A DNA stretch of 64,000 bases, from assembly GCF_016698645.1 (NCBI RefSeq), contig NZ_CP068047.1, positions 3,321,001-3,385,000 of the forward strand, given 5' to 3'. The stretch comes from Devosia oryziradicis (lineage in GTDB: Bacteria > Pseudomonadota > Alphaproteobacteria > Rhizobiales > Devosiaceae). Below are positions 14,246-28,525 of the stretch, in pieces. Numbering within the stretch: the stretch's first letter is position 1; every line of letters starts with the position of its first letter. The notes under the pieces were generated by a model. The model made no database searches and had not been told where the DNA came from. It saw only the letters and a list, made by a program, of their open reading frames with translations. The position numbers and the translations under genes were made by a program.

Positions 14246-15733
14246 ATGGGCAATTACATCCTGGCGATCGACCAGGGGACGACGTCGAGCCGGGCGATTG
14301 TGTTTGGCAAAGATCGGACGATTGCCGGGGTGGGGCAGAAGGAGTTCACCCAAATCTTCCCACAGGATGGTTGGGTGGAGCACGATCCGGAGGAAATCTG
14401 GGAATCGGTGCTGTGGGCGATCAAGAAGGCCATCCGGGAAGCAAAGATCGAAGCCAAGGATGTGGCCGCCATCGGCATCACCAACCAGCGGGAAACGACG
14501 CTGATCTGGGACCGCCAGACCGGCAAGCCTATTCACAATGCGATCGTCTGGCAGGACCGGCGTACCGCTGCCTATTGCGCCAAGCTCAAGAAGGCGGGGC
14601 ATGAAAAGGTCATTACCAAAAAGACCGGGTTGCTGCTCGACCCCTATTTCTCCGGCACCAAGATCAAGTGGCTACTCGACAACGTGAAAGGCGCAAGAAA
14701 GCTTGCAGCAAAAGGGCAGCTTGCTTGCGGCACGGTCGATAGTTTCCTGATCTGGCGGCTGACCGGCGGCAAGGTGCATGCGACCGACGCCACCAATGCC
14801 GGCCGCACACTGTTGTTCGACATCGGCAAGAACCAGTGGGATGCGGGCCTGCTGGAGCTGTTCGACGTTCCGGCGGCTTTGCTGCCCGAGGTCAAGGATT
14901 GCGCCGATGATTTCGGGGTCACCGAGCCGGGCCTGTTCGGCGCCGCGATCCCCATCCTTGGCGTCGCCGGCGACCAGCATGCCGCCACCATCGGCCAGGC
15001 CTGTTTCGAGCCGGGCATGATGAAATCGACCTACGGTACGGGCTGCTTTGCCCTGCTCAATACCGGCGCCGACATGGTGCGCAGCAAGAACCGGCTCTTG
15101 ACGACCATTGCCTACCGGCTCGATGGCAAGACCAGCTATGCCCTTGAAGGCTCGATCTTTATTGCAGGCGCCGCCGTGCAATGGATCCGCGACGGACTGA
15201 AGCTGGTCAAGCAGGCCAGCGAAACCGGACCACTGGCGCGCAGTGCCGACCCCAGCCAGAACGTCTACATGGTCCCCGCCTTCGTCGGGCTGGGAGCACC
15301 ATGGTGGGATGCCGAGGCGCGCGGGGCAATCTATGGCCTGACGCGCAATTCCGGCCCGGCGGAAATCGCCAAGGCGGCGCTGGAAGCGGTGTGCTACCAG
15401 ACGCGCGACCTGCTCCAAGCCATGCACAGGGACTGGAAGGGCGGCGGCGACACGGTGCTGCGCGTCGATGGCGGCATGGTGGCGTCGGACTGGACCATGC
15501 AGTTCCTCGCCGACGTGCTCGACGCGCCGGTCGATCGGCCGGTGATCCTCGAGACCACGGCGCTGGGGGCTGCCTGGCTGGCGGGGGCGAAGGCTGGGGT
15601 CTGGCCCGGGATGGAGGAGTTTGCGGCGGGCTGGGCCAAGGACCAAAGGTTCGAACCGCAGATGGACGCGGCCGAGCGCAAGCGCAAGATCAAGGGCTGG
15701 GACGTGGCCGTTCGGCGCACGCTGCTGCAGTAG
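14246..15733 (+). CDS. glpK: Glycerol kinase
   Basis: A 495-residue FGGY-family kinase that phosphorylates glycerol to sn-glycerol-3-phosphate, the substrate of GlpD. Landmarks are [17 protein letters not shown] at the N-terminus, [26 protein letters not shown], the [11 protein letters not shown] segment, and the FGGY-type signature [25 protein letters not shown] lies 6-10 nt before the ATG. Tight spacing after glpD supports one transcript. Confidence 0.96.
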
Positions 15734-15751
15734 CGCTCGGGCTCCCCGCGC

Positions 15752-16252
15752 CTACCCCTGCCACGCCTCGAAGCTGCCGCCGGCGATCATGGCCCAATAG
15801 AGCTTGCCACCTGAACTGCGAGCGGCGGCGAGGCCGAATTCGACGAAGCGGTGGCTGAGCAGGGTGCTGCGGTGGCCCGATGAATCCATCCAGCCACCGA
15901 TGACGCCCTGCAGGTCCTTGTAGCCCTTACCGACATTCTCGCCGACGGCCCCAAGGTACCCCGCGGCTGTGACGCGCTGGCGCAGGGTGACGCCCAGGTC
16001 GTGGCTCATGGTGTTCTTCTGCGCCATGAGGCGAGCCTGCGAGCGGGCTGCCTCTTCGAGCCTGACATTGTAGGTCCAGGGTGGGGCGCCATTGGCGCGA
16101 CGCACGGTGTTGATCGCCTCGAGGATTTCAGCGTCGGTCAGCGTCTCGGGCGTGCTGGCGCCCTTAGGCAGCATGGGGATCGTCGTCGAGCAGGCCGCCA
16201 AGGCAGCCGTCGCGGTCAACAGAATGAAGCCGCGGCGCGTCGTGGTGAGCAT
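15752..16252 (-). CDS. CAP/SCP-domain lipoprotein
   Basis: A 166-residue protein with an N-terminal export signal containing a twin-arginine-like TTRRGFILL and a lipobox LAAC, so probably a lipoprotein. The rest is a CAP (SCP/PR-1-like) domain: INTVRRANGAPPW, a QARLMAQKNTMSHD helix with the conserved His, GENVG, and GGWMDSSGHRSTLL with the second His. Bacterial CAP proteins are secreted and of varied or unknown function. An ATG at 16264 is also possible; I prefer 16252, preceded by GGAAA. It follows the kinase-like gene within a few bases. Confidence 0.8.
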   Translation of the reverse strand: MLTTTRRGFILLTATAALAACSTTIPMLPKGASTPETLTDAEILEAINTVRRANGAPPWTYNVRLEEAARSQARLMAQKNTMSHDLGVTLRQRVTAAGYLGAVGENVGKGYKDLQGVIGGWMDSSGHRSTLLSHRFVEFGLAAARSSGGKLYWAMIAGGSFEAWQG

Positions 16253-16270
16253 CAGGTTTTCCATGATGGG

Positions 16271-17128
16271 TCAGGCCTGGTCGTAGGCACTGAGCAGATG
16301 GGGCAGGCAGGCGAGCTGATGCGTGATGGAGCGTTCTTCGGCCAGCTCCCAACAGGCCGACAAGGCAGCGTGCGCTGCTGCCCAGCCGAGGATGCGCTTG
16401 CGCGGATAGTCCAGGCGCTGGGACAGAATGTCGGCTCGCGCGGCAATGCGTCGAGGATCGGTCGCCAGGTGCGCGGCGCCCTTGGGGTTGATGAAGACAT
16501 TGGCCAGGTCATAGGCCGGATCGCCCAGCACGCCCTTTGGATCAATGGCCAACCAGCCGCGATCGGAACTGAGGATATTGTCGTGATGTACGTCGCCATG
16601 CAGCGGAATTTGCGCGCTGGGACGATCAAACAGCTTCAAGGCAATGCCGCAGGCCCGGGCGTAAAGGTCGCGGGCCGTGTGCGGCCAGGCGCGGACGTCG
16701 GTATCGAACAGGGTTTGGAAGCGCTGGCGCAGCGGCTGCAGCTCGGGCGGGGTCTCGCTACGCTGGCGGTGCAGGCTGGCAACCACGGTGGCAAGGGCAA
16801 TGGTGCCTTCGTCGTCCTTGCCCGCGCGAACGGGATCGCCCAGCGTGCCGCCGTCGAGCCATTCCATGAAGATGGTATCGCCATGCATGTCGAAGACCGT
16901 GGCGGCACCCTCGCCGCCATACCAGGCGAGCAAGCGGGAGCCTCGTTGTTCCTCGACCTCGTTGGGCTTGAGAATCTTCAGGGCGGCAAAGTTGCGGCCA
17001 TTCTGCTCGACACGAAACACCCAACTCGTGTGGGTTTCGGCGACAGGCGTCGATTTGGTCAGGGACCAGCGGATCAGGGCGCGGCTGAGCGCGGTTTCTA
17101 CGGGCGACTGATTCATCATTGCCGGCAT
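16271..17128 (-). CDS. Aminoglycoside/hydroxyurea phosphotransferase family protein (APH(6)-like)
   Basis: A 285-residue small-molecule kinase fold. The active-site loop LHGDVHHDNIL with downstream AIDPKGVLGDPAYDLAN matches the streptomycin 6-kinase / hydroxyurea kinase group rather than APH(3'). Also visible are IFMEWLDGGTLGD (hinge) and ALKILKP (ATP-binding lysine). Members inactivate antibiotics in some hosts, but most chromosomal homologues have no known substrate, so resistance should not be assumed. Start is ambiguous (17128, 17119 or 17116). Probably co-transcribed with the CAP lipoprotein 6-18 bp downstream. Confidence 0.8.
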   Translation of the reverse strand: MPAMMNQSPVETALSRALIRWSLTKSTPVAETHTSWVFRVEQNGRNFAALKILKPNEVEEQRGSRLLAWYGGEGAATVFDMHGDTIFMEWLDGGTLGDPVRAGKDDEGTIALATVVASLHRQRSETPPELQPLRQRFQTLFDTDVRAWPHTARDLYARACGIALKLFDRPSAQIPLHGDVHHDNILSSDRGWLAIDPKGVLGDPAYDLANVFINPKGAAHLATDPRRIAARADILSQRLDYPRKRILGWAAAHAALSACWELAEERSITHQLACLPHLLSAYDQA

Positions 17129-17336
17129 TAGAGCAGAAGGCGCGCCCGGTTTCGACGGGGTGGAGGCTGATTGCCGGAAAACTTGATGAAATCGTGGCGG
17201 TAACCAAGAGGTAAGGCTGCCGGTTGGCGCAATGGCAACCCTAAGTGGAGGAAGGGCTAGTCCGGCAACCCTCCTTTACCGGTTGCAGGCGCAGGGTTGT
17301 GGCACGCGAAAGCAAGTCCAGCAGGGGGAACTTGAA

Positions 17337-17513
17337 ATGACGCATCAACCTTACGAAGACCGGCGCGAATCCACACGGCTGTCGGACATCATTTCGGCCG
17401 AGGAATTGCACCCGACCTTTGGCCGGCAGGTGATGAACGGGCTCGGCGGCCTGTTGCTGCTGCTGATTACGGGTGTGGTGATCGTGGCACTGGTCTTGTG
17501 GAAGTCGCCATGA
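17337..17513 (+). CDS. Small single-span membrane protein
   Basis: A 58-residue protein, MTHQPYEDRRESTRLSDI..., with a charged cytoplasmic N-terminal half and one hydrophobic helix (about residues 36-54, GGLLLLLITGVVIVALVLW). A GGGGG Shine-Dalgarno lies just upstream of the ATG at 17337, which is why I reject the longer frame from 17232. No family recognised. It is isolated between the kinase-like gene and uxaC and is followed at once by an intergenic repeat element. Confidence 0.6.
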   Translation: MTHQPYEDRRESTRLSDIISAEELHPTFGRQVMNGLGGLLLLLITGVVIVALVLWKSP

Positions 17514-17516
17514 GCT

Positions 17517-17598
17517 TCACCCTCGGGCTTGACCCGAGGGCTCTACACTCGCTGCACGGAAGGTAAGTGCAGTGCCCTTGGGTCAAGCCCGAGGGTGA
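17517..17598. repeat. Intergenic inverted-repeat element, copy A
   Basis: Two 25-bp arms (17517-17541 and 17574-17598) are reverse complements with one mismatch; each arm is itself a palindrome (CCCTCGGG-N5-CCCGAGGG). The 32-nt centre contains another inverted repeat (CTGCAC/GTGCAG). A second copy lies at 23169-23250 in the opposite orientation, including a similar centre, so this is a dispersed element and not a simple terminator. The centre here is the reverse complement of copy B's at roughly four positions in five. Confidence 0.85.
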
Positions 17599-17627
17599 CG
17601 CCGGGTGGTCGCGGAGCGACCGATGGC

Positions 17628-19034
17628 CTAATCCAGCTTGTACGCATCCTTGGCCGCCTGGTAGCTCAGGTGCTTGGCGATATCGCGGGCCGTGGACATG
17701 GTGATGCGATTTTCGCCGACCCAGCGGCCGAGCAAGCCGCAGACTTCGCGGCGCCAGACGTCGTGGCGTGCAGGGATAGACAGTAGCGCGCGGGTGTCGT
17801 CGTTGAAGCCTGCAAGATTGTAGAAGCCGGCCGACTCCACCACCTGGTCGAGATAGCGGCGGATGCCCTGCGGGCTGTCATGGAACCACCAGGGCGGTCC
17901 GATCATCAGGCTGGGCCAATAGCCGGCCATGGGCGCCAGTTCGCGGGCATAGGTGGTCTCATCGAGCCCGAACATGATGAGCCGCAGATTGGGTTCATTG
18001 CCGCAGCGCGAGAGCAGGGCCCGCAGGCCATTCACGTAGTCGGTGGTGCCGGGGATATCGGCGCCCAGATCGGTACCGCGCTCGACCATGAGCAGCGGAT
18101 CGGTATTGCGGCGCGAGCCGGCGTGAAGCTGCATCACCATGCCGTCTTCGACCGAAAGCAGCGCCATCTCCGTCATCATCTGGGCGCGGAACAGCTCGGC
18201 ATCGGCAGCGTCGTGCCGGCCCGCGAGCACCTTGTCGAGCAAAGCTTGCTTTTCGGGCGCGGAGAGATCGGCGGTGTTCGCCGTGGGGACGCCGTGATCG
18301 GTGGCGACGGCACCGAAGCGGCGGAAGTATTCGCGGCGGTTGCGATGAGCATTGATGAGCCCCGACCAGTTGGCGACGTTCTCGCCTGATATCTCGCCGA
18401 ACTTCTGCAGGTTCTCGACGATGGCGGCGCGGCTCGGATCGGTCACGTCATCGGGGCGATACGTGGTGCGGACACGGCCGATGATGCCCTTGGTTTCCAT
18501 CGCCTGGTGATGCACCAACGGATCGAGAGCAAATTCGGTGGTGGCGATGACCTCGACGCGGGCGCGATCAAGCAGTGCCATGGGCAGCAGTGCCGGCGTG
18601 GCGAGGGCAGCGTCGATGGTGTCATAGATGGCGTCGGCCGTGGCGGGCGACAGCTCCTGTTCGATGCCGAACGCCCATTGGAGCGAATGATCGATCCAGG
18701 TCTTGGAGGGCGTACCGGCGAAGAGGTGGTAGTTGGCGGCAAACAGCCGCCAGGCGTCGCGCCCTTTGGCGACCGGCTTGCCATCCTTGCGGGGGACGCC
18801 GAGGTCATCATAGCTCAGGCCGCGGCTGCGCAACATACGCAGCACATAGTGATCGGGCGTCAGAAACAGCGCCGCCGGATCGGAAAAGCGCCCGTTATTG
18901 GCAAACCATGACGGATCCGTGTGCCCATGCGGGCAGATCAGGGGCAGGTCGCGAACTTCTGGATAAAGCTCGCGCGCGATGGCGCGGGCGGGCTCGGAGG
19001 CAGGGAGCAGGCGGTCTGGATGCAAATGGGTCAT
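17628..19034 (-). CDS. uxaC: Glucuronate isomerase (uronate isomerase)
   Basis: A 468-residue member of the UxaC family of the amidohydrolase superfamily, interconverting D-glucuronate with D-fructuronate and D-galacturonate with D-tagaturonate. Features include LICPHGHTDPSWFA (metal-binding HxH-like region), VMQLHAGSRRNTD, GFDDT-like and FHDSPQGIRRYLD segments. MTHLHPDRLLP at 19034 fits family length and has upstream regulatory sequence; the frame continues to 19070 without a good ribosome site. No other hexuronate gene is adjacent. The upstream 17-bp motif at 19074-19090 may be an operator. Confidence 0.93.
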   Translation of the reverse strand: MTHLHPDRLLPASEPARAIARELYPEVRDLPLICPHGHTDPSWFANNGRFSDPAALFLTPDHYVLRMLRSRGLSYDDLGVPRKDGKPVAKGRDAWRLFAANYHLFAGTPSKTWIDHSLQWAFGIEQELSPATADAIYDTIDAALATPALLPMALLDRARVEVIATTEFALDPLVHHQAMETKGIIGRVRTTYRPDDVTDPSRAAIVENLQKFGEISGENVANWSGLINAHRNRREYFRRFGAVATDHGVPTANTADLSAPEKQALLDKVLAGRHDAADAELFRAQMMTEMALLSVEDGMVMQLHAGSRRNTDPLLMVERGTDLGADIPGTTDYVNGLRALLSRCGNEPNLRLIMFGLDETTYARELAPMAGYWPSLMIGPPWWFHDSPQGIRRYLDQVVESAGFYNLAGFNDDTRALLSIPARHDVWRREVCGLLGRWVGENRITMSTARDIAKHLSYQAAKDAYKLD

Positions 19035-19073
19035 GGCGTCGTTACTGCCATGGTCCGCGGGGAAGATCAATCA

Positions 19074-19090
19074 TCTTCCATACAAGATCG
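19074..19090 (-). promoter_or_regulatory. 17-bp motif upstream of uxaC
   Basis: On the minus strand this reads CGATCTTGTATGGAAGA, identical to 12626-12642. It lies 40-56 bp before the uxaC start, beside an A/T-rich stretch (19099-19120) that could hold the promoter. A GntR-type regulator of hexuronate genes is one candidate for the binding protein, but this is inference. Confidence 0.3.
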
Positions 19091-19248
19091 AGATGCCTTG
19101 CATTTTATGTAAATTAACCGCGTTCCGAGGATGGCGTTCGTCCGAGGCGAGCGCGGGATTACCTTCAGCTGGCGGGTGAGAACAGCGCAAACGCGGCTGC
19201 CCAAGGGTCCAATTCGGTCAGAGCGACCGGCAGACTGAGGGGTAGACG

Positions 19249-19410
19249 ATGGCGCATATCGACAGCAACGATCCCAGCCTGGCAGCGGCGCGCCGGCAAG
19301 CCAGGCATTCGGGCTATGTCCAGCATGCACAGGTCATGCTGATGGCGGCGGGGATTGCCGCATTTGGCATCGTGGCGGTGGCCGCCACTGTGATGACCAC
19401 CCTGCTCTAG
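19249..19410 (+). CDS. Very small single-span membrane protein
   Basis: A 53-residue ORF, MAHIDSNDPSLAAARRQARH..., with a charged N-terminal half and a C-terminal hydrophobic helix (about residues 27-50). A strong TGAGGGG ribosome site lies 6-9 nt before the ATG, which is the main evidence that it is real. It ends 79 bp before the response regulator. Its layout resembles the 58-residue protein at 17337, but I see no clear sequence similarity and no known family. Confidence 0.55.
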   Translation: MAHIDSNDPSLAAARRQARHSGYVQHAQVMLMAAGIAAFGIVAVAATVMTTLL

Positions 19411-19489
19411 CCAACGCGGAGCCTCTGAGCTCTTGCTTCCGTGCCTTACGGAAACACACTAGTGTGCCGCCGGGGAGAGACCGGCGCCG

Positions 19490-20164
19490 ATGCGAATACT
19501 GCTCGTCGAAGACAATGAAGACCTGGGCGAGGCGATCCAGAAGCGGCTGCGCAATTCCGGCCATTCGGTCGAGTGGGTGCGCGATGGCAATGAGGTCGTG
19601 CCGGCGGCACAGGGCGACGATTTCGACGCCGTGGCGCTGGACCTGATGCTGCCCAGCCGCGACGGCATCGGGCTGATCGCGGAGTTGCGCAAGGGCAGGT
19701 TCAGCGCGCCGATCCTGGTTATTACCGCGCGCTCGGAAATCGACGACAAGGTCAGCCTGCTGGATCTGGGCGCAGACGACTATCTGGTGAAGCCGTTCGA
19801 CCTGCGGGAGCTCGAGGCGCGGCTGCGCGCGCTGATCCGGCGCACGGGCGGGCAGACGACAAGCACGCTGGGTGTGGGCAACCTAGAAATGGACCTGGCG
19901 GGGCTCAATGCCAGCATCGGCGGGCGCGCCCTGGAACTGGGACGGCGCGAGTTCCGGCTGCTGGAAATCCTCGTTACCAATGCCGGCCGCGTGGTGCCCA
20001 AGGAGCGGCTGATGAACCAGCTGTTCAATTTCGATGAGGCGGTCTCAGTCAACGCGCTGGAACTGCATATTTCGCGGCTGCGCAAGAAGCTTGAGCCGGC
20101 CAATATCGAGATCGGCACGGTGCGCGGCGTCGGCTATGTGGTCCGGGCGCCGCATGGCGGCTAA
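19490..20164 (+). CDS. OmpR-family response regulator (TctD-like)
   Basis: A 224-residue regulator. The receiver (about 1-115) has the acidic pair in LLVEDNEDLG, phosphoacceptor Asp in VALDLMLPSRDG, Thr in LVITAR and Lys in YLVKPFDL. The winged-helix DNA-binding domain (about 125-220) ends in LHISRLRKKLE...IGTVRGVGYVVR. It resembles TctD/QseB regulators, which control tricarboxylate uptake with a TctE kinase. The kinase gene overlaps its 3' end by 11 bp, indicating translational coupling. Confidence 0.93.
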   Translation: MRILLVEDNEDLGEAIQKRLRNSGHSVEWVRDGNEVVPAAQGDDFDAVALDLMLPSRDGIGLIAELRKGRFSAPILVITARSEIDDKVSLLDLGADDYLVKPFDLRELEARLRALIRRTGGQTTSTLGVGNLEMDLAGLNASIGGRALELGRREFRLLEILVTNAGRVVPKERLMNQLFNFDEAVSVNALELHISRLRKKLEPANIEIGTVRGVGYVVRAPHGG

Positions 20165-22619
20165 GTCCTTCTCCATCCGCAATCGCATTGTGGCGCTGGC
20201 GCTGGCGCTGCTGCTGGCGGCGGCGGTGGTGCTGATCGTCTTCATTCGTGACTATGCCGAGCGGTCGGCCGACCGGGCGTTCGACCGGCTGCTGGCCGCC
20301 TCGGCGCTCACCATTGCCGGTGCGGTGCAGGTGGAGAACGACACCGTCATAGTCGAACTGCCGTTTGCCTCGTTCGGCATGTTTTCGGGGCGTGACCGGG
20401 TGTTCTATGCCGTGGAAAGCCCTGGCGGCGGGGCGGTGACGGGGTATGAAGACCTGTCGCGCATGCTGCCGGAGATGACCTCGGCGGGACCTGTTTTCGC
20501 CGACACGATCTATCGCGGTGACCTGGTGCGCGTGGCGAGCGTGGGGCGGTTGACGTCATCGGGCGGCGATGCGGACTGGGTAACCATCCATGTCGCCGAA
20601 ACGCAGAGCGAGCGCGAGGCGCTTGCCGGAGAGATACTTTCAAACGCCATCGTGCCCGTGGTGGCACTGACGCTCCTGGCCGTGGCCCTGGTGTGGTTCG
20701 GCATCGGGCGCATGTTCGCCCCGCTTTATCAGTTGGAGCAGGAATTGCGGGGGAGAGCGCCGGACGACCTCAGCCCGGTGGACGTGCCCGTGCCGGTCGA
20801 GGTTAGTCACCTGGTGTCCGGGCTCAATGCCTTCATGGCCCGCCTGGGCAGCGCCATGGAGCGGGTGTCGGGGCTCGTTGCGGAAGCCGCGCATGAGGTG
20901 CGGACGCCGCTGGCGTCGCTGCGGGCGCAGGCGGAAGTCGCAATAGACGAACAGGATCCGGTGGCGTTGCGGGCGCGCGTGGGCCGCATTCACCAGGGCG
21001 CGGTGCAGGCGAGCCAGCTGGTGTCGCAATTGCTGATGGAGGCGACGATTTCCCACCGCCTCGAGAACCAGGAGACCGACACGACGGCGTTCGGCCAGGT
21101 GGTGGACGACGTGCGGCAGCGGCTCGACCCGGACCAGGCGGGGCGGCTGGTGGTGGACTTGCCCGAGGTCGTGGCGGGAGCGCAAATTCGCGGCGATCGG
21201 GTGGCGCTGCGCGAGATGGTGCGCAATGTGGTGGACAATGCGCTGGTCTATTCGAGCGGACCGGTAGAACTGGGCGGCGCGGTAGGCGACGGCGTGATGC
21301 GGTTCGTAGTCAGCGACCACGGGCCCGGCATTTCCGACAGTGAAAAACCGCTGGTGCTGGAACGGTTCAAGCGTGGAGCGGCAAGTGGAGGGTCGGCGGG
21401 ATCGGGCCTGGGCCTGTCGATCGTCAAGCGGGTTGCAGAGGCGCATCGCGGTTCGCTGCGACTGACGGATCGGGCGGGGGGCGGGCTGGTGGTGGAGATA
21501 GAGTTGCCCCTGGTGGGGCGCAATCCCAAGCTCGAGCAGATGCGGCGGGCGCTGGGCTCGCTGTCGGCGCTGGTGCTCTGCCTGCTGCTGCTCAACCCAA
21601 GTGATGCGCAGGCCGCTTCCACCCGCTATCCGGCGCGTGATGGCGCCGGTGAGGTGGTGCTGACCATTGTCGGTGTCACCGATACGCCGCTCTTCGCGCA
21701 GTTCATCGCCGGCTTCCAGGCGCAGCGGCCGGACGTGACCGTCGTCTATGAGGAAACCGATTCCGTGCCGCTTTACGAGCGCTACCTGAGCGGTGACTTG
21801 ACGCCCAAGCCGGACCTGCTGGTCAGCTCGGCCTCGGACCTGATGATCAAGCTGGCCAATGACGGCCATGCCATGGCCTATGACAGCCCGTTCCTCGGCG
21901 CCCTGCCCCAATGGGCGCATTGGCGGAACGAGGTGTTCGGCTTCACCTTCGAGCCAGCTGTCATCATCTACAATCCGGACCGGATCACTGCCGAGGAGGT
22001 GCCACGCACTCACCTGACGCTGGCGGAGATGCTGGAGACGCAGACCGCGCGCTTTCGCGGGACGATCGCCACCTACGACATTGCCCTGTCAGGCGTGGGC
22101 TATCTGCTGGCCTCACAGGATCAGGTGATCTCGTCGAACTTCTGGCGGCTGGCCGCGGCGTTCGGGCGGGTGGAGGCGGTGTTTTCCGGTTCGAGCCCGG
22201 CAATCCTGAATGGCGTTGCGGATGGCTCGCTGGCGCTGGGCTACAATGTGCTGGGCTCCTATGCCTTTGCGCGTAAGGCCGATGGCGCCAATATTGAGAT
22301 CGTGGTGCCCGACGACTATGTGCTGGTGCTGACCCGTGCCATGCTGATCCCGCGCGATGCGCCCTCACCCGAACTGGGCAAGGCCTTCGTCGACTTCGCC
22401 CTCTCGCCGGCAGGCCAGGCAATTGCGGCCGAGCAGACGGCGCTGGGCTCGGTCGTGCCGGGTGGGAGTGGCGAATGGACGAGCGAGGCTATCGCAGCCC
22501 GCGGCCGCGGAGTGATCCAGCCTATTCCGCTGGGTCCGGCCTTGCTGGTGTCTCTGGATCAGCAAAGGCGCCAGCGATTTCTCGACAGCTGGGGCGAGAT
22601 TGTGTCGCCCAAGCCGTGA
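20154..22619 (+). CDS. TctE-like sensor histidine kinase fused to a C-terminal periplasmic solute-binding protein
   Basis: One uninterrupted 821-residue frame with two normally separate proteins. Residues 1-454 are a TctE-type kinase: TM1 (about 11-31), periplasmic 2CSK_N-like sensor (about 35-160), TM2 (about 163-186), HAMP, H-box EAAHEVRTPLASL (H247), N-box RNVVDNALVYS, G1 DHGPGIS and G2 GSGLGLSIVKR. Residues 463-487 look like a signal peptide or third membrane span (positive MRR, hydrophobic core, SDAQA cleavage site). Residues 488-821 are a type-2 solute-binding protein of the Fe3+/extracellular family 1 kind (LTIVGVTDTPLFAQFIAGFQ; ...IIYNPDRI; ...LSPAGQAIA). No stop separates them, and the internal ATG at 21540 has no good ribosome site. 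The topology would put the binding domain in the periplasm beside the sensor. Confidence 0.85.
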   Translation: MAAKSFSIRNRIVALALALLLAAAVVLIVFIRDYAERSADRAFDRLLAASALTIAGAVQVENDTVIVELPFASFGMFSGRDRVFYAVESPGGGAVTGYEDLSRMLPEMTSAGPVFADTIYRGDLVRVASVGRLTSSGGDADWVTIHVAETQSEREALAGEILSNAIVPVVALTLLAVALVWFGIGRMFAPLYQLEQELRGRAPDDLSPVDVPVPVEVSHLVSGLNAFMARLGSAMERVSGLVAEAAHEVRTPLASLRAQAEVAIDEQDPVALRARVGRIHQGAVQASQLVSQLLMEATISHRLENQETDTTAFGQVVDDVRQRLDPDQAGRLVVDLPEVVAGAQIRGDRVALREMVRNVVDNALVYSSGPVELGGAVGDGVMRFVVSDHGPGISDSEKPLVLERFKRGAASGGSAGSGLGLSIVKRVAEAHRGSLRLTDRAGGGLVVEIELPLVGRNPKLEQMRRALGSLSALVLCLLLLNPSDAQAASTRYPARDGAGEVVLTIVGVTDTPLFAQFIAGFQAQRPDVTVVYEETDSVPLYERYLSGDLTPKPDLLVSSASDLMIKLANDGHAMAYDSPFLGALPQWAHWRNEVFGFTFEPAVIIYNPDRITAEEVPRTHLTLAEMLETQTARFRGTIATYDIALSGVGYLLASQDQVISSNFWRLAAAFGRVEAVFSGSSPAILNGVADGSLALGYNVLGSYAFARKADGANIEIVVPDDYVLVLTRAMLIPRDAPSPELGKAFVDFALSPAGQAIAAEQTALGSVVPGGSGEWTSEAIAARGRGVIQPIPLGPALLVSLDQQRRQRFLDSWGEIVSPKP

Positions 22620-22853
22620 GGCACCGGACTCGCCTTCAATCGGCACGACGCCATGCCCAAAATGCATGAGTAAGACTATGGTCCTAGCCAAGCGGCAGGT
22701 TTCAGGGGATTTTGCCGGCCGTTTTGCAGCGGCATGCGCAGAGCGCATGGCCGGCTTGACCTTTTGCCCCTAGCAGCGCGAAGTCGACGAGCCCATCTAC
22801 ACACTCATGAAAGCGGCCCGGCAATTCGGTCGGGGCTGATGAGGAAACTGGCT

Positions 22854-23021
22854 ATGAGCACCACCCGCAAGTTCTTTGCGACCCTTGGCACCTTCGTCGA
22901 AGTGTTCGGCAGCGCTGCTGCCGTTTCGAACGCGGTCGAGGGTGGTCGTGCCCCCAAGGCCAAGCACCTCAAGTCCCTCGGTATCGACGCCGACGCTTTC
23001 CGTTCGATCGGCAAGCTCTAA
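22854..23021 (+). CDS. Small basic protein of unknown function
   Basis: A 55-residue protein, MSTTRKFFATLGTFVEVFGS, ending in APKAKHLKSLGIDADAFRSI plus GKL. AGGAAA lies about 6 nt before the ATG at 22854; an in-frame ATG at 22839 is less well placed. The C-terminal helix recalls the short arginine- or lysine-rich DUF1127-type proteins common in alphaproteobacteria, but the match is not firm. It has its own strong terminator downstream, so it is probably monocistronic and well expressed. Confidence 0.6.
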   Translation: MSTTRKFFATLGTFVEVFGSAAAVSNAVEGGRAPKAKHLKSLGIDADAFRSIGKL

Positions 23022-23088
23022 GTCTCCCTGGCGCGGGGCGCTTTCCCTCCCTGGAGCGACCTGCGCCGAGCGGCTGATCTGACGTGAG

Positions 23089-23125
23089 AAAGCCCGGATG
23101 CCCTTGAATGGGCGTCCGGGCTTTT
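23089..23125 (+). terminator. Strong rho-independent terminator
   Basis: A 15-bp stem (AAAGCCCGGATGCCC pairing with GGGCGTCCGGGCTTT, one G-T pair) with a 6-nt loop and a short T-run. It lies 68 bp after the small gene at 22854-23021 and also faces the convergent tctA side. Confidence 0.85.
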
Positions 23126-23168
23126 GCGTTGTCTGGCTACGGGGAGATAGGGGCCGGCCCACCGGCCG

Positions 23169-23250
23169 TCACCCTCGGGCCCGACCCGAGGGCGTTGCAC
23201 TTACCCAACGTGCAGCAAGTGAAGAGCCCTCGGGTCAAGCCCGAGGGTGA
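23169..23250. repeat. Intergenic inverted-repeat element, copy B
   Basis: Arms at 23169-23193 and 23226-23250 are near-perfect reverse complements (TCACCCTCGGG... and ...CCCGAGGGTGA) and match the arms of copy A at 17517-17598. The centre (GCACTTACC, CGTGCAGC, AGTG) matches the reverse complement of copy A's centre at most positions, so copy B is inverted relative to copy A. It lies between the terminator and the tctA 3' end. Confidence 0.85.
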
Positions 23251-23287
23251 CGATCGGTGGATGGGGCAGGCTTGTCCCCGATCCAAA

Positions 23288-24835
23288 TCAATCCTCGTCG
23301 GCGGCCATCTGCTGGAGCACGGCGCCCTTTCCCCGCATGCGCAGGTAGAGGGGGATGAGCAAAGCGGCGGCGGCAATCACGTAAAGCGTGACGGCGATGG
23401 GCGAATGCACCAGCGCCACCGGATCGCCCTGGCTGATTGCGAGTGCCCGGCGCAGCTGCTGCTCGGCCAGCGGCCCCAGGATCAGGCCGATGACGACAGG
23501 GGCGATCGGATAGCCGAAGCGGCGCAGGCCATAGCCAAGAATGCCGAAAGCCAGCAGGATCAGCAGTTCAAACGAGAACGGGATCGGACCCAGGCGGCCG
23601 GACATGGCGCCGTTGGCACCCAGCGTGCCCAGCGTCGCGAAGGTCAGGATGCCGGCATATAGCCAGGGCCGCGGGATGGTCAGCAGCTTCACCCAGAGGC
23701 CGATCAGCGGCAGGTTGAGCACCAGCAGCATGAAATTGGCCACGAGCAGGCTGGCAATCAAAGACCAGACGAGCGGCGCATTGTTCTCGAAGAGCAGCGG
23801 GCCCGGTTGCAGGCCGAACTGCTGGAAGCCGGCCAGCATGATGGCCGCAGTTGCGGAGGTGGGCAGGCCCAGCGTCAGCAGGGGTACCAGGGTACCCGCC
23901 GCCGAGGCATTGTTGGCCGCCTCTGGGCCGGCCACGCCCTCGATGGCGCCCTGGCCGAACTCCTCGGGATGCTTGGAGAGGCGACGCTCGGCGGCATAGG
24001 AGAAGAAGGTGCCGATTTCAGCGCCGCCGGCGGGCATGGCGCCGATAGGAAAGCCGATGACGGTGCCTCGCAGCCAGGCGGCCCAGGATCGCTTCCAATC
24101 CTGCAGCGTCATCCACACCGAGCCCTTGACCGCCAGAACCTCTTCCTTGATCTGGCTTGGAGAGGCGGCGATGGCAAGGGTCTCGCCGATAGCGAAGAGA
24201 GCAACCGCAAGAGTGGTCACTTCGATGCCGTCGAGGAGGTCGGGAATACCAAAGGCGAGGCGCGCCTGGCCGGTCTGCAGGTCGATGCCGATGCAGCCCA
24301 GGCCCAGACCGATGAACAGTGCGGTGATGCCGCGCAGCGCGCTGTCACCGAAGGCAGCCGACACGGTGATAAAGGCCAGCACCATCAAAGCAAAATAGTC
24401 GGCCGGTCCGAAGGACAAGGCGACCTTGACCACCCAGGGCGCAAGGAAAGCCAGGGCCACCGTGGCGATGAGTCCGGCGACAAAAGAGCCGATGGCCGCC
24501 GTCGCAAGCGCCGGGCCGCCCCTGCCCTTGCGGGCCATCTTGTTGCCCTCGAGCGCAGTGACGATCGAAGCGGATTCGCCGGGCGTATTGAGCAGGATGG
24601 AGGTGGTCGAGCCGCCATACATGCCGCCATAGTAGATGCCGGCGAACATGATGAGCGAGCCCGTCGGATCGAGACGGTAGGTGACGGGCAGCAGCAGCGC
24701 CACGGTCAGGGCCGGACCGATGCCAGGCAGCACGCCAACGGCCGTGCCCAGGGTCACGCCGAGCAAAGCGTAGAGCAGATTCTGCCATTGCATCGCGGCC
24801 ACGAGGCCATTGGCAAGCAGACCGAAAGTATCCAT
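23288..24835 (-). CDS. tctA: Tripartite tricarboxylate transporter, large membrane subunit
   Basis: A 515-residue protein with about twelve membrane segments, the large permease of a TTT (tripartite tricarboxylate) secondary transporter. Diagnostic stretches are [42 protein letters not shown], and [20 protein letters not shown]. It works with the small TctB subunit and the periplasmic TctC receptor encoded immediately upstream in order tctC-tctB-tctA. The substrate may be citrate or another carboxylate; sequence does not fix it. Confidence 0.95.
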
Positions 24836-24850
24836 GTCAGCGTCTTTCGC

Positions 24851-25336
24851 TCAAGGGATGAGGCGCTCGATGGGGCCCGTTGGCAGGGAAAGCTGCAGCC
24901 CGCGCGAGAAGATGAACCAGATGACAAAGGCCAGCACGAAACCGATCGGGATGGTCTGCCACAGCGGCCCGCGGCCGAAGCCCTTGGCGGTGAAAGCGAA
25001 CAGCACGGCGGTGGCGATGGAGAAACCCGCCCAGCCGAGAAGCAGCATCTGGCCAACCAGCCCGCCGATGATCCACAGCATCGGGCCGTAATTGTCCTTC
25101 TCGCGGGGCGGAAAGCTACCGCGCAGGGCCGAGATGACGGTTCCGATGGAGAGCAGGATCAGGCCGCCCGCTATGACATAGGGGAACACCTGCGGGCCGA
25201 CCTTGGCCTGAACGGGCGGCAAGCGCATCTGCGCGGTCTGCCAGATAATCACTGCGGCAATCGCCGCCAACGCAAGCGCGATGACAAGCGCCGCCCCGTC
25301 GGGGCGGCGCGAGAGGTTGGGTTCGCCTGAACTCAT
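24851..25336 (-). CDS. tctB: Tripartite tricarboxylate transporter, small membrane subunit
   Basis: A 161-residue protein with four predicted membrane helices (for example ALVIALALAAIAAVIIW and FAFTAKGFG flanked by helices), the expected size for TctB. Its ATG overlaps the tctC stop (ATGA) and tctA starts 15 bp downstream, so the three genes are translationally linked. TctB is poorly conserved in sequence; the call rests mainly on size, helices and position. Confidence 0.9.
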   Translation of the reverse strand: MSSGEPNLSRRPDGAALVIALALAAIAAVIIWQTAQMRLPPVQAKVGPQVFPYVIAGGLILLSIGTVISALRGSFPPREKDNYGPMLWIIGGLVGQMLLLGWAGFSIATAVLFAFTAKGFGRGPLWQTIPIGFVLAFVIWFIFSRGLQLSLPTGPIERLIP

Positions 25337-26277
25337 TGGACGAGGCCAATGTCTTTCAGGATGCCCGATGTCGCCTCGATATCGGAAGCGAGCTGGGCGT
25401 CGAAATCGGCACCGGCGAGATACATGTCCTGCCAGCCTTTGGTTTCAAGCGTCTGCTTCCAGGTCGCCGAGGTCACCATCTTTTCGATGTCGGCATTGAT
25501 GGCAGCCTTCTGCTCCTCGGTGATCTCGGGGGCGGCAGCAACCATGCGCCAGTTTTCAACGACGAGATCGACGCCAGCTTCCTTCAGTGTGGGGATTTCC
25601 GAGCCTTCGAGACGGGCGGCACCGGTCGAGGCCAGGGCCCGCAGGTCACCCGATTCGATCTGGGCGGCGAATTCGCCCAGACCCGAAATACCCACGGTGA
25701 CCTGGCCACCAAGCACCGCCGCGAGGGCTTCGCCACCGCCGGAGAAGGCGATGTAGTTGACCGTGGTGGGATCGACGCCAACGGTCTTGGCGAAGAGGCC
25801 AGCCGCGATGTGGTCGACGCCGCCGGCCGAGCCGCCGGCCCAGGAGACGGAGCCGGGATTGGCCTTGAGCTTGGCGATCAGGTCATCGACGGTCTTGAGC
25901 TCGGAGGCAGCGGGAACCACGATCACGTCCGACTCGCCGGTGAGCCGCGCGATGGGCGTGACATTGGCGAGCGAGACGGGCGAGGCGTTGGTGAGGATGG
26001 CGCCGACCATCACATAGCCACCGACGATCAGGGCATTGGGGTTGCCGGTCGACTGGTTGACGAACTGGGCCAAGCCGATCGTGCCGCCGGCACCGGGAAC
26101 ATTGGTCACCTGCACATTGCCCGAAATGCCTTCGGCCTGCATGGCCTCCTGCATGGAGCGGGCGGTCTGGTCCCAACCGCCGCCGGGGGCAGCGGGGGCC
26201 ATGATGGTGTAGTCGGCGGCGAAAGCGGGAACAGCCATTGCGCCAGAAACCAGCGCGGCCAAGAGCAGCTTGTTCAT
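25333..26277 (-). CDS. tctC: Tripartite tricarboxylate transporter, periplasmic receptor
   Basis: A 314-residue Bug/TctC-family binding protein with a Sec signal peptide (MNKLLLAALVSGAMAVPAFA, cleavage near residue 20). The family pattern is clear: IMAPAAPGGGWDQTARSMQE (ligand loop), NVPGAGGTIGLAQFVN, and SVSWAGGSAGGVDHIAAGL. The start at 26277 has GGAGGA upstream. It delivers carboxylate to TctAB. The TctD/TctE-like pair at 19490-22619 is the natural candidate regulator, although it lies about 3 kb away and convergently. Confidence 0.94.
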   Translation of the reverse strand: MNKLLLAALVSGAMAVPAFAADYTIMAPAAPGGGWDQTARSMQEAMQAEGISGNVQVTNVPGAGGTIGLAQFVNQSTGNPNALIVGGYVMVGAILTNASPVSLANVTPIARLTGESDVIVVPAASELKTVDDLIAKLKANPGSVSWAGGSAGGVDHIAAGLFAKTVGVDPTTVNYIAFSGGGEALAAVLGGQVTVGISGLGEFAAQIESGDLRALASTGAARLEGSEIPTLKEAGVDLVVENWRMVAAAPEITEEQKAAINADIEKMVTSATWKQTLETKGWQDMYLAGADFDAQLASDIEATSGILKDIGLVQ

Positions 26278-26437
26278 AAGTCCTCCCATATCATATCCGG
26301 AACGTCGTTGCGTTCGTGACGAGGGAGAATAGGCTGCGTCCCTGTCACCGTCCTGTCAGCGCGGCGCCTACGCCATGCGACTTTGGTTCATCTGGATAGC
26401 TGGGGGCAGCTTGCGCCACTGACGCGGGGATTGCAAC

Positions 26438-28288
26438 TCAGGCCGTGCGGCGCGCGTCCTCATCGCCCTGGGTAATGGCAGGCTTCTGGGCGAACAGCTT
26501 GAGCAAGCGCGTCGCGTCCTCCATCGAGCAGGGACGGGAATAGAGGTAGCCCTGCCCCATGGTGCAGCCGAGCTGGGACAGGATGCGGGCCTGTTCGGGG
26601 GTCTCGATACCTTCGGCAACCAGACGCATATCGAGCTTGCGGGCAATGTCGATGATTGCCCCGGCCACGACATCGCAGGCCGCGTCATTGCCCAGACGGG
26701 AAACAAAGGAGCGGTCGATCTTGATCACATCGACCGGAAAGGTCAGCAGGTGGGTGAGCGAGGCAAAGCCAGTGCCGAAATCATCGAGGGCGACAAGCAG
26801 GCCGCGTTCGCGCAACGCCTTCACCGCCTTGGGCACCATCTGGTCATTGCCGCCCATATAGACGGACTCGTTGACCTCGAGCACGACATGCTTGAGCGGA
26901 ACGCCTTCGCGCTCGAAGGTCTCCACGATACGGCGTTCGAGATCGCCACGCAGGAAGTCGCCGGTCGTCACATTGATGCCGACATGCTGGAAATCAAGAC
27001 CCAGGTCGAGCCAGTGGCGGATATCGCGGGCGATCTGGTTGAGCATCTGTCCGGTCAGCTGCCAGGCGATGCGCGGATCGGCAAGGGCGGCGTGAAACTC
27101 GCCGGCCGACGCGATGCGGCCGTCGGGCATGCGCATGCGTGCCAGGGCTTCGACGCCGACCACTTCGGCGGTGCCGAGCTGGACGATCGGCTGGTAATGC
27201 GCGAGCACCCGTCTTTCGGCCAATGCCTGGTCGACCGCCCGCACCATCTTGGCGCGTTCGACCATCGAGGTGCGAAGGCCGGGCGTGAAGCGCACATAGC
27301 CGCCGCGCCGGATGTCCTTGGCATGATAAAGGGCAAAATCGGCATTCTGGCTTAGCGAAGCGCCATCGAGGCCATCGGGTCCGAACAGGGCGCCGCCGAC
27401 GGTAACATGGGGATCAATGGTCTGGTCGCCGGCCTGGATGAGACCGCGCACCGAGGCCAGCATGCGGGTCGCCGCTTCCTCGAGGCCGGCATGGGTTTCG
27501 CAATCGGCAACCAGGACAGCAAACTCGTCGCCGCCCAGCCGGCACGCCGTGAGCGAGGGATGGCAATTGGCAATGCGTTCGGCGACGGTGCGGATCAGCA
27601 TGTCGCCGAAGATATGCCCGACCGTATCATTGACCAGCTTGAGGTGGTCGATATCGACCAGCAGCAGGCCGAAGGACTCGCCCTCGGTAATCGACCGGCT
27701 CAGGATTTCATTGAAGTGGCCGCGATTGGGCAGGCCGGTCAGCGCATCGAAATAGGCCAGACGATAACTGCGCTGGCGCACTTGTTCATGGTCGATGGCG
27801 ATGGCGCAGAGCCGGACGCAGGTTTCCACAATGTTGCGCTCGAGGTCGTCCGGACCGCGGCTGGTGTCATAGTAGAAGGCGAAGGTGCCAACGACGCGGC
27901 CGTCGCGATCGCAAATGGGCGTTGACCAGCAGGCGCGCAGGCCCAGCGGCCCAACCAGGTCGCGATAGTCGGCCCAGAGCGGGTCACTGGCAATATCGGT
28001 GACCACCACCGGGGCATTGTGGAAAGCCGCCGTCCCGCAGGAGCCGGCGCTGGGGCCGGCAATCAAACCATCGATGGCGCTGGAATAGGCCAGTGGCAGG
28101 CTTGGCGCGGCCAGGGGATGGAGGCGGCCATCGGCATCGACCGTCAGGATCGAGCAGATTGCCGCGGGCGCCAGCAACTCTGCCCGCCGACAAAGCAGGT
28201 CGGCGACGGCCACGAGCGGTTCGCCGCAGGCAATTGTTTCGAGTATCTCAGTCTGCAGCCGCAGCAGCGCACTATCGGTATTCATCAT
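26438..28288 (-). CDS. GAF-GGDEF-EAL cyclic-di-GMP protein
   Basis: A 616-residue cytoplasmic protein. An N-terminal GAF-like sensor (about 20-165) is followed by a diguanylate cyclase domain with intact RLGGDEFAVL (GGDEF at 252-256) and a phosphodiesterase domain with VEALAR (EAL at 380-382), the metal-binding NES and DDFGTGFASL motifs and KIDRSF. Both domains look catalytically competent, so net activity is open. I start at MMNTDSALLR; the frame runs upstream into the tRNA-Phe gene, which cannot be coding. No membrane span is seen. It stands alone. Confidence 0.93.
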   Translation of the reverse strand: MMNTDSALLRLQTEILETIACGEPLVAVADLLCRRAELLAPAAICSILTVDADGRLHPLAAPSLPLAYSSAIDGLIAGPSAGSCGTAAFHNAPVVVTDIASDPLWADYRDLVGPLGLRACWSTPICDRDGRVVGTFAFYYDTSRGPDDLERNIVETCVRLCAIAIDHEQVRQRSYRLAYFDALTGLPNRGHFNEILSRSITEGESFGLLLVDIDHLKLVNDTVGHIFGDMLIRTVAERIANCHPSLTACRLGGDEFAVLVADCETHAGLEEAATRMLASVRGLIQAGDQTIDPHVTVGGALFGPDGLDGASLSQNADFALYHAKDIRRGGYVRFTPGLRTSMVERAKMVRAVDQALAERRVLAHYQPIVQLGTAEVVGVEALARMRMPDGRIASAGEFHAALADPRIAWQLTGQMLNQIARDIRHWLDLGLDFQHVGINVTTGDFLRGDLERRIVETFEREGVPLKHVVLEVNESVYMGGNDQMVPKAVKALRERGLLVALDDFGTGFASLTHLLTFPVDVIKIDRSFVSRLGNDAACDVVAGAIIDIARKLDMRLVAEGIETPEQARILSQLGCTMGQGYLYSRPCSMEDATRLLKLFAQKPAITQGDEDARRTA

Positions 28289-28449
28289 CCGCCCTCGATC
28301 CCGCCGGCCAGAATAGTCGGGCAGAATGAAACGGCAGTTCCAAAGATAGATCGCCTTGCGGCGCACGCCGAAGGGGATCGTTAGGGATGTGATGGTGGCG
28401 AGGCGGGAGGGGCGCCCAGCGCAAGATACGTTCGGATTGCCTGAAAAAA

Positions 28450-28525
28450 TGGTGCCCGGGACCGGAATCGAACCAGTGACACGCGGATTTTCAATCCGCT
28501 GCTCTACCAACTGAGCTACCCGGGC
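28450..28525 (-). tRNA. tRNA-Phe (GAA)
   Basis: On the minus strand the sequence folds into a full cloverleaf: acceptor GCCCGGG/CCCGGGC with encoded CCA, a D arm (GCTCAGTTGGTAGAGC), anticodon stem-loop GCGGA-TTGAAAA-TCCGC giving anticodon GAA, and a T arm with GGTTCGATTCC. Length is 76 nt. Confidence 0.97.

Follow-up and report, generated by a model that had tools for sequence, protein, structure and literature searches.

A single open reading frame in the genome of Devosia oryziradicis joins a TctE-type histidine kinase to a type-2 solute-binding protein (SBP), with a segment of signal-peptide anatomy between the two. The gene lies in the 64,000-nucleotide stretch analysed here (contig NZ_CP068047.1, positions 3,321,001 to 3,385,000; hereafter the window), from an assembly that consists of one contig of 3.5 Mb. 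The fusion is conserved in the genus and has arisen repeatedly. We consider it probable that the chain is a polyprotein, processed by signal peptidase into a kinase and a free SBP, because the cut site has been retained.

Kinase and binding protein in one frame

The frame occupies window 20154-22619 (+) and runs without a stop through 821 codons (821 amino acids, aa). A Pfam scan places the kinase first and the SBP second, in agreement with an earlier reading of the letters alone (the sequence-only reading), which had described a TctE-like kinase running into a receptor within a protein of 88 kDa; the predicted mass of the whole fusion is 87.4 kDa. The features of the gene are as follows.

20154..22619 (+), fused histidine kinase/SBP, 821 aa (frame reading, Pfam, kept in relatives)
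20187..20246 (+), first transmembrane segment of the kinase (TM1), residues 12-31 (hydrophobic run; confident helix in the AlphaFold2 model)
20211..20636 (+), sensor region 2CSK_N, residues 20-161 (Pfam, E 2.5e-32)
20871..21050 (+), HisKA, residues 240-299 (Pfam); codon of the phospho-acceptor His247 at 20892-20894
21192..21512 (+), HATPase_c with N, G1 and G2 boxes, residues 347-453 (Pfam)
21510..21548 (+), linker and positively charged n-region of the internal signal peptide, residues 453-465 (fixed-rule junction scan, alignment)
21540..21542 (+), internal ATG, Met463, without a Shine-Dalgarno (SD) sequence in this gene
21549..21593 (+), hydrophobic core of the internal signal peptide, residues 466-480 (fixed-rule junction scan)
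21594..21614 (+), c-region NPSDAQA, with a predicted signal peptidase I cut after Ala487, between 21614 and 21615
21615..22616 (+), SBP of the 3c9h/MctA type, residues 488-821, 35.8 kDa (Pfam, fold match, pocket residues)

In the SBP half, SBP_bac_11 matches residues 511-760 (E 1.9e-15), and SBP_bac_1/8/6 match the same part. The H-box, N, G1 and G2 boxes had been described as intact; indeed, H247, N358, D388, G390/G392 and G416/G418/G420 are identical in 68/68 aligned fusions. Kinases of the EvgS/BvgS type carry an N-terminal SBP domain, ahead of the catalytic core, whereas the Pfam order here puts the SBP after HATPase_c, again as the sequence-only reading had it. An AlphaFold2 model of the fusion has a mean predicted local distance difference test score (pLDDT) of 84.2 and a predicted template modelling score (pTM) of 0.65.

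Conservation and selection

The sequence-only reading had proposed a search for the same domain order in other genomes. We scanned 136 genomes, 75 of them in the genus, at a threshold of E 1e-60, with the genus rows counted by hand. An intact full-length fusion was found in 53/75 genus genomes, the window's own included, the others being 69-90% identical to it. Broken or contig-cut copies occur in 4/75 (G022, G061, G065 and G075), kinase and SBP are separate genes in 2/75 (G067 and G074), a further 4/75 hold distant paralogues only, and 12/75 gave no match at this threshold. Outside the genus, a genome of another genus of the same family (G128) carries the fusion at 73% identity, and remoter fusions (31-58% identity) were found as second copies within the genus, in other parts of the family, and in families and orders beyond it. 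In a phylum sample of 398 genomes including Alphaproteobacteria, for which at most two candidates were scored per genome at E up to 1e-35, only the window's own protein spans both halves among the matches listed. A plasmid search returned 164 records; among the 30 listed, the single-piece fusions all belong to Alphaproteobacteria. Four named fused records on plasmids (L159, L160, L161 and L163) annotate the fusion as a single coding sequence. In these records the whole fusion is labelled 'extracellular solute-binding protein' only, a name that conceals the kinase half and serves as a warning for annotation.

Across 12 close copies (66 pairs), the ratio of non-synonymous to synonymous substitution rates (dN/dS) comes to 0.124 in the kinase and 0.115 in the SBP, against 0.43 in the linker, with equal synonymous divergence across all three. 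These values indicate that both halves are under purifying selection and that the linker is relaxed. That the fusion is a sequencing or assembly artefact, or a gene in decay, is an explanation of negligible probability: frameshifted copies in two other genomes (G022 and G061) would speak for it, and against it stand the intact copies, the purifying selection and the single coding sequences of the plasmid records. An origin by frameshift or lost stop is ruled out by the 53/75 intact copies together with the dN/dS values. The copies in G022 (L083, a one-contig assembly) and G061 (L084, a two-contig assembly) carry frameshifts that affect tct genes close by as well as the fused gene, and these may reflect sequencing errors or decay.

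The junction retains signal-peptide anatomy

For comparison with relatives in which kinase and receptor are separate adjacent genes, likewise proposed by the sequence-only reading, 100 loci were fetched and combined with earlier ones, giving 127 rows with both domains, 69 fused and 58 separate. Left out of this set were L038-L056 (copies taken as the same genomes), the frameshifted L083 and L084, L103 (a copy of L102), and L002-L008, L057 and L058 (other kinases); the 53-row Devosia-type set further omits L075.

The signal-peptide-like segment noticed between the halves is present. In this protein the hydrophobic core, 466-480, is followed by NPSDAQA/AS (the slash marks the predicted cut), so that the junction has the anatomy of a polyprotein with an internal signal peptide: n-, h- and c-regions and a -3/-1 motif. 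We applied a fixed rule, which takes a hydrophobic core and the best -3/-1 site with A at -1 and A/V/S/T/G at -3, and found a signal peptidase I motif at the junction in 67/69 fusions. The same rule finds a motif in only 10/69 of the TM1 segments of the same proteins, which are uncut and have the same orientation. On free SBP signal sequences this crude rule succeeds in 44/58, the misses including two lipoprotein-like sequences and L085. Four more junctions (L159, L160, L161 and L163), inspected by eye, also end in an allowed motif. The hydrophobic run has a median length of 15 residues at the junction and 20 in TM1. Ala487, at -1, is present in 53/53 Devosia-type rows, although mean conservation is 0.50 for the junction columns as against 0.82 and 0.86 for the halves; in the wider 68-row alignment, 59 rows have Ala in the same column, 8 have a gap and 1 has Thr. 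The junction thus evolves fast yet retains the anatomy of a signal peptide.

The sequence-only reading had left open whether the receptor stays tethered or is released. If the internal segment were an uncut third transmembrane helix, the SBP would be held covalently beside the sensor loop as a built-in detector. The single open frame and a possible topology fit such an arrangement, and the periplasmic linker (median 21 aa between the core and the first strand of the SBP) could reach the membrane-proximal domain. However, the corresponding distance in free SBPs is 18 aa, so that the fusions barely exceed it and no tether length has been added. The excess of cleavage motifs over TM1, the shorter core and the invariant -1 Ala within a drifting junction also argue against a tether, as does fission of the gene into separate proteins in two relatives (L085 and L086, see below). 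In addition, the 3-30 aa (median 13) between the end of the kinase domain and the core would pin the catalytic domain of a tethered protein near the membrane. We regard the tether as unlikely and place it second to the processed polyprotein.

Several observations nevertheless count against cleavage. Two of the 69 fusions, L072 and L082, lack a canonical motif, and the free SBP of L085 has none by the crude rule, with VMA/A readable by eye. A signal sequence within a chain can stay uncut, and cleavage is here predicted from gene sequences. The AlphaFold2 model gives residues 456-487 a pLDDT <50 and no helix, and the transmembrane helices of the kinase and the SBP are confident; this fits a signal peptide without proving it. 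Free signal peptides are also modelled poorly, so that low confidence at the junction decides nothing.

A possible internal translation start

A further possibility is that ribosomes also initiate within the frame, either where the SBP gene once started or at a GTG in the kinase end, and that the SBP arises mainly as a separate product. The sequence-only reading had argued against two products from the lack of a ribosome site at the internal ATG. This holds for the present gene, in which the ATG at 21540 has an energy of 0.1 kcal/mol against the anti-SD sequence and a nearby GTG -2.7. It also holds for the fusions as a group, with no systematic internal ribosome start found among the 69. A start codon of any kind is present in the n-region of only 46/69 fusions, and ATG in 20/69; n-region SD energies of <= -6 occur in 13/69 (19%), compared with 20% of 1737 kinase-body windows. 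General internal initiation was rejected, since neither the n-region start codons nor the SD energies exceed the kinase-body background. The synonymous divergence of the linker, the same as that of the halves, also speaks against a second start.

The argument is not absolute, and the following patterns favour two products over a single processed chain. A first test, which took in the G-rich end of the kinase domain, gave median best-start SD energies of -6.4 kcal/mol for fusions, -6.15 for separate SBP genes and -3.2 for kinase bodies; the means with the G-rich stretch included are -6.0, -6.4 and -3.5, respectively, so that fusions match separate SBP genes when this stretch is counted. SD-like strings in the GGGLVVEIELP stretch at the kinase end occur in 62% of fusions and 26% of separate kinases (Mann-Whitney p 1.7e-4, for rows that are non-independent and confounded with clade membership). 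GGG or GGA encodes Gly444 in 40/53 rows against a background of 41%. In a 22-member Devosia-type subgroup the codon for residue 463 is ATG in 7, TTG in 14 and CTG in 1, that is ATG/TTG in 21/22, and its TTG share ranks 1 of 88 Leu columns; the remaining rows of the 53-row set mostly show a gap in this column. Many relatives, moreover, have two abutting genes. On the other hand, the invariant Val447 shows no preference for GTG, whose frequency there, 24/53, lies below the 61% background. The ATG/TTG and SD-like patterns could be left over from the original SBP start, stem from common ancestry, or mark a start that still works weakly. Overall, two translation products seem to us distinctly improbable and rank third, after the tether.

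Repeated fusion and one fission

In many relatives the regulator, kinase and SBP are separate adjacent genes, and one group has the SBP gene in divergent orientation to the regulator and kinase. Where separate kinase and SBP genes share a strand, the SBP domain starts 38 to 210 nucleotides past the kinase stop, which places the beginning of the SBP signal peptide near or inside the kinase end. A single stop loss or a small in-frame deletion would then suffice to fuse the genes. In the case of L100 and L101, one in-frame TGA splits kinase from SBP. The separate SBPs of these two loci have lipoprotein-like signal sequences (LAGC and LAAC) and perhaps represent a membrane-anchored variant of the same system. 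L143 and L158 have two SBPs of this type, one flanking each side of the regulator-kinase pair.

The fusion label was mapped onto a careful kinase tree (67 of 132 rows) and onto quick trees (88 of 127 rows). It requires 6 changes on the careful tree, all 6 forced by supported branches (bootstrap 6-7). The quick trees require 5 changes (kinase) and 6 (SBP), with 3 forced by starred branches in each. A single clade of all fused rows plus L085/L086 was ruled out by the approximately unbiased (AU) test (p 1.4e-70), as was a looser single clade without L089, L090, L139, L140 and L161 (p 0.008); the groups were named after the tree was seen, and the p values are indicative. On these trees the fusion has arisen repeatedly and has been undone once.

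The reversal is seen in two Devosia-type loci nested in the fused clade, L085 and L086 (and the copy L055). Here the genes are separate and follow the order regulator-SBP-kinase; the SBP carries an N-terminal signal-like sequence of its own, and no third hydrophobic segment is present in the kinase tail. The kinase can therefore work without the third segment, and a free SBP is possible. The kinase tail retains VGRS, which resembles the VGRN of the fused linker.

Ligand of the SBP half

The closest solved folds are 3c9h (Agrobacterium) and MctA (7f6e/7f6f), with citrate or Mg-citrate, at target TM-scores of 0.86-0.92; among those with a named ligand, the metal-citrate-binding MctA is the nearest. 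Of six mutated MctA residues, four are identical in this SBP (D510, S559, S646 and Y703); of the remaining two, one is a Thr to Ser change (S681) and the other, S26, differs (V508). These correspondences use a numbering offset of 2 for MctA, checked on the mutant chains S26A, T199A and S164A. In both fold and ligand-contact residues the SBP is therefore MctA-like, and its ligand is probably citrate or metal-citrate. This does not carry over to all relatives. L087 and L091-L093 have none of the four residues at which the pocket matches MctA, and their SBPs are divergent, which makes another ligand likely there; it is thus unlikely that all fusions bind citrate. The kinases of L087, L091, L092 and L093 group near the main clade and their SBPs are very divergent; a receptor swap is possible.

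Neighbouring genes

The fused gene is flanked by a regulator and by genes of a tripartite tricarboxylate transporter.

19490..20164 (+), response regulator of TctD/OmpR type (Pfam Response_reg and Trans_reg_C); its stop overlaps the kinase start at 20154
23288..24835 (-), TctA, large membrane subunit of the tripartite tricarboxylate transporter (Pfam); likely target operon
24851..25336 (-), TctB (Pfam)
25333..26289 (-), TctC, the transporter's own binding protein (Pfam), of an SBP family different from that of the fused SBP

The top NCBIfam match of the regulator is TctD PRK15479, at 195 bits against a cut-off of 337 for the equivalog, so that it appears TctD-like and is not classed as TctD itself. 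With its OmpR-type regulator beside a kinase built of 2CSK_N, HisKA and HATPase_c, the locus has the architecture of the TctDE/BctDE type. The tctA, tctB and tctC genes lie downstream of the fusion on the opposite strand, linking the two-component system to tctABC and adding support to the TctE-like assignment. No ABC (ATP-binding cassette) permease was found in a Pfam scan of 12 proteins at 14246-28510, where two small frames gave no match of any kind. The locus thus has the composition of an SBP-assisted (three-component) sensor: an SBP with kinase and regulator, and no ABC permease of its own alongside. Further neighbours encode an FGGY sugar kinase, a CAP-domain protein, an aminoglycoside phosphotransferase (APH)-type protein, UxaC and a GGDEF-EAL protein. 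The APH-type gene, at window 16271-17128 (-), matches Pfam APH_6_hur (E 9.6e-58) and APH, and would be a kinase of the aminoglycoside/hydroxyurea phosphotransferase type. A small frame of 55 aa without a Pfam match lies between the SBP end and tctA (window 22854-23021).

The regulator adjoins the kinase in 67/69 fused rows, the other two being at contig ends, and in 58/58 separate rows. A relative of tctA, tctB or tctC is present in the fetched flanks of at least 46/69 fused and 43/58 separate loci, and of tctA or tctB only in at least 44/69 and 22/58; these are lower bounds, as the flanks are mostly 1.5-2.5 kb. The fused gene adjoins tctCBA in Peteryoungia and malic enzyme and citrate lyase genes in Azospirillum thermophilum, and the separate-gene version in Bosea adjoins aconitase. 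For the proposal that tctABC is the regulated target, two points have to be set on the other side: 23/69 fused loci show no tct gene in their short fetched flanks, and it is gene position that suggests the target.

Proposed mechanism

We propose a three-component system for sensing citrate or tricarboxylates, made up of regulator, kinase and regulatory SBP. Kinase and SBP would be translated as a single chain, with the kinase inserted by TM1 and a second transmembrane segment (TM2). Past the cytoplasmic catalytic domain, segment 453-487 would re-engage the secretion machinery as a true signal peptide, and signal peptidase I would cut after Ala487, giving a membrane kinase of 51.6 kDa and a free periplasmic SBP of 35.8 kDa at 1:1. 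Once loaded with its ligand (probably citrate or metal-citrate), the SBP would dock on 2CSK_N, and the regulator would then activate the adjoining tctABC.

A more tentative extension is that of a sensor polyprotein with several origins, in which signal peptidase delivers kinase and co-receptor at 1:1 and the leftover signal peptide serves as a C-terminal third anchor. With 3-30 residues to the core, such an anchor might, again tentatively, hold the catalytic domain at the membrane and tune signalling.

Comparison with known systems

The proposed docking resembles that in Bordetella, where the periplasmic SBP BctC, loaded with citrate, activates the kinase BctE (PMC5812351, PMC9602780). BctCDE/TctDE of Bordetella and Salmonella are likewise two-component systems beside tct genes (tctCBA). 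Their co-sensor is TctC, a separate protein, whereas the window holds TctC and also a second SBP of another family, fused C-terminally to the kinase. CuaD-CuaS-CuaR likewise pairs a dedicated regulatory SBP with a two-component system, but is encoded by separate genes in a clostridium and responds to cellobiose (PMC10384115).

Nearer relatives are the alphaproteobacterial regulator-kinase-SBP triples of Bosea vaviloviae and Bradyrhizobium sp. 155, with the same three families in the same order. There, kinase and SBP are neighbouring or overlapping genes, and the SBP begins with a start codon and an N-terminal signal sequence of its own. MctA and Agrobacterium 3c9h have the fold and most of the tested pocket residues in common with the fused SBP, but are titled as SBPs of ABC transporters, whereas no ABC permease was found among the genes scanned around the fusion. 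In the case of the FbcH cytochrome b/c1 polyprotein of Bradyrhizobium, one chain with an internal signal peptide is cut by signal peptidase. FbcH belongs to a respiratory complex and is not a sensor, and for the kinase-SBP fusion the equivalent cleavage is a prediction.

The open-licence literature, consulted mostly at abstract level, yielded no account of a kinase that carries an SBP at its C-terminus. SBP-assisted tricarboxylate sensing is known in itself; in these lineages it has been converted several times into a single gene. SBP-assisted kinases have been described as separate partners, and here the partners have repeatedly been locked in one chain with the cut site kept. Repeated fusion with a kept cut site suggests that stoichiometry or co-insertion is worth selecting in SBP signalling. 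As related species offer natural separate, fused and re-split states, the value of this coupling is directly testable.

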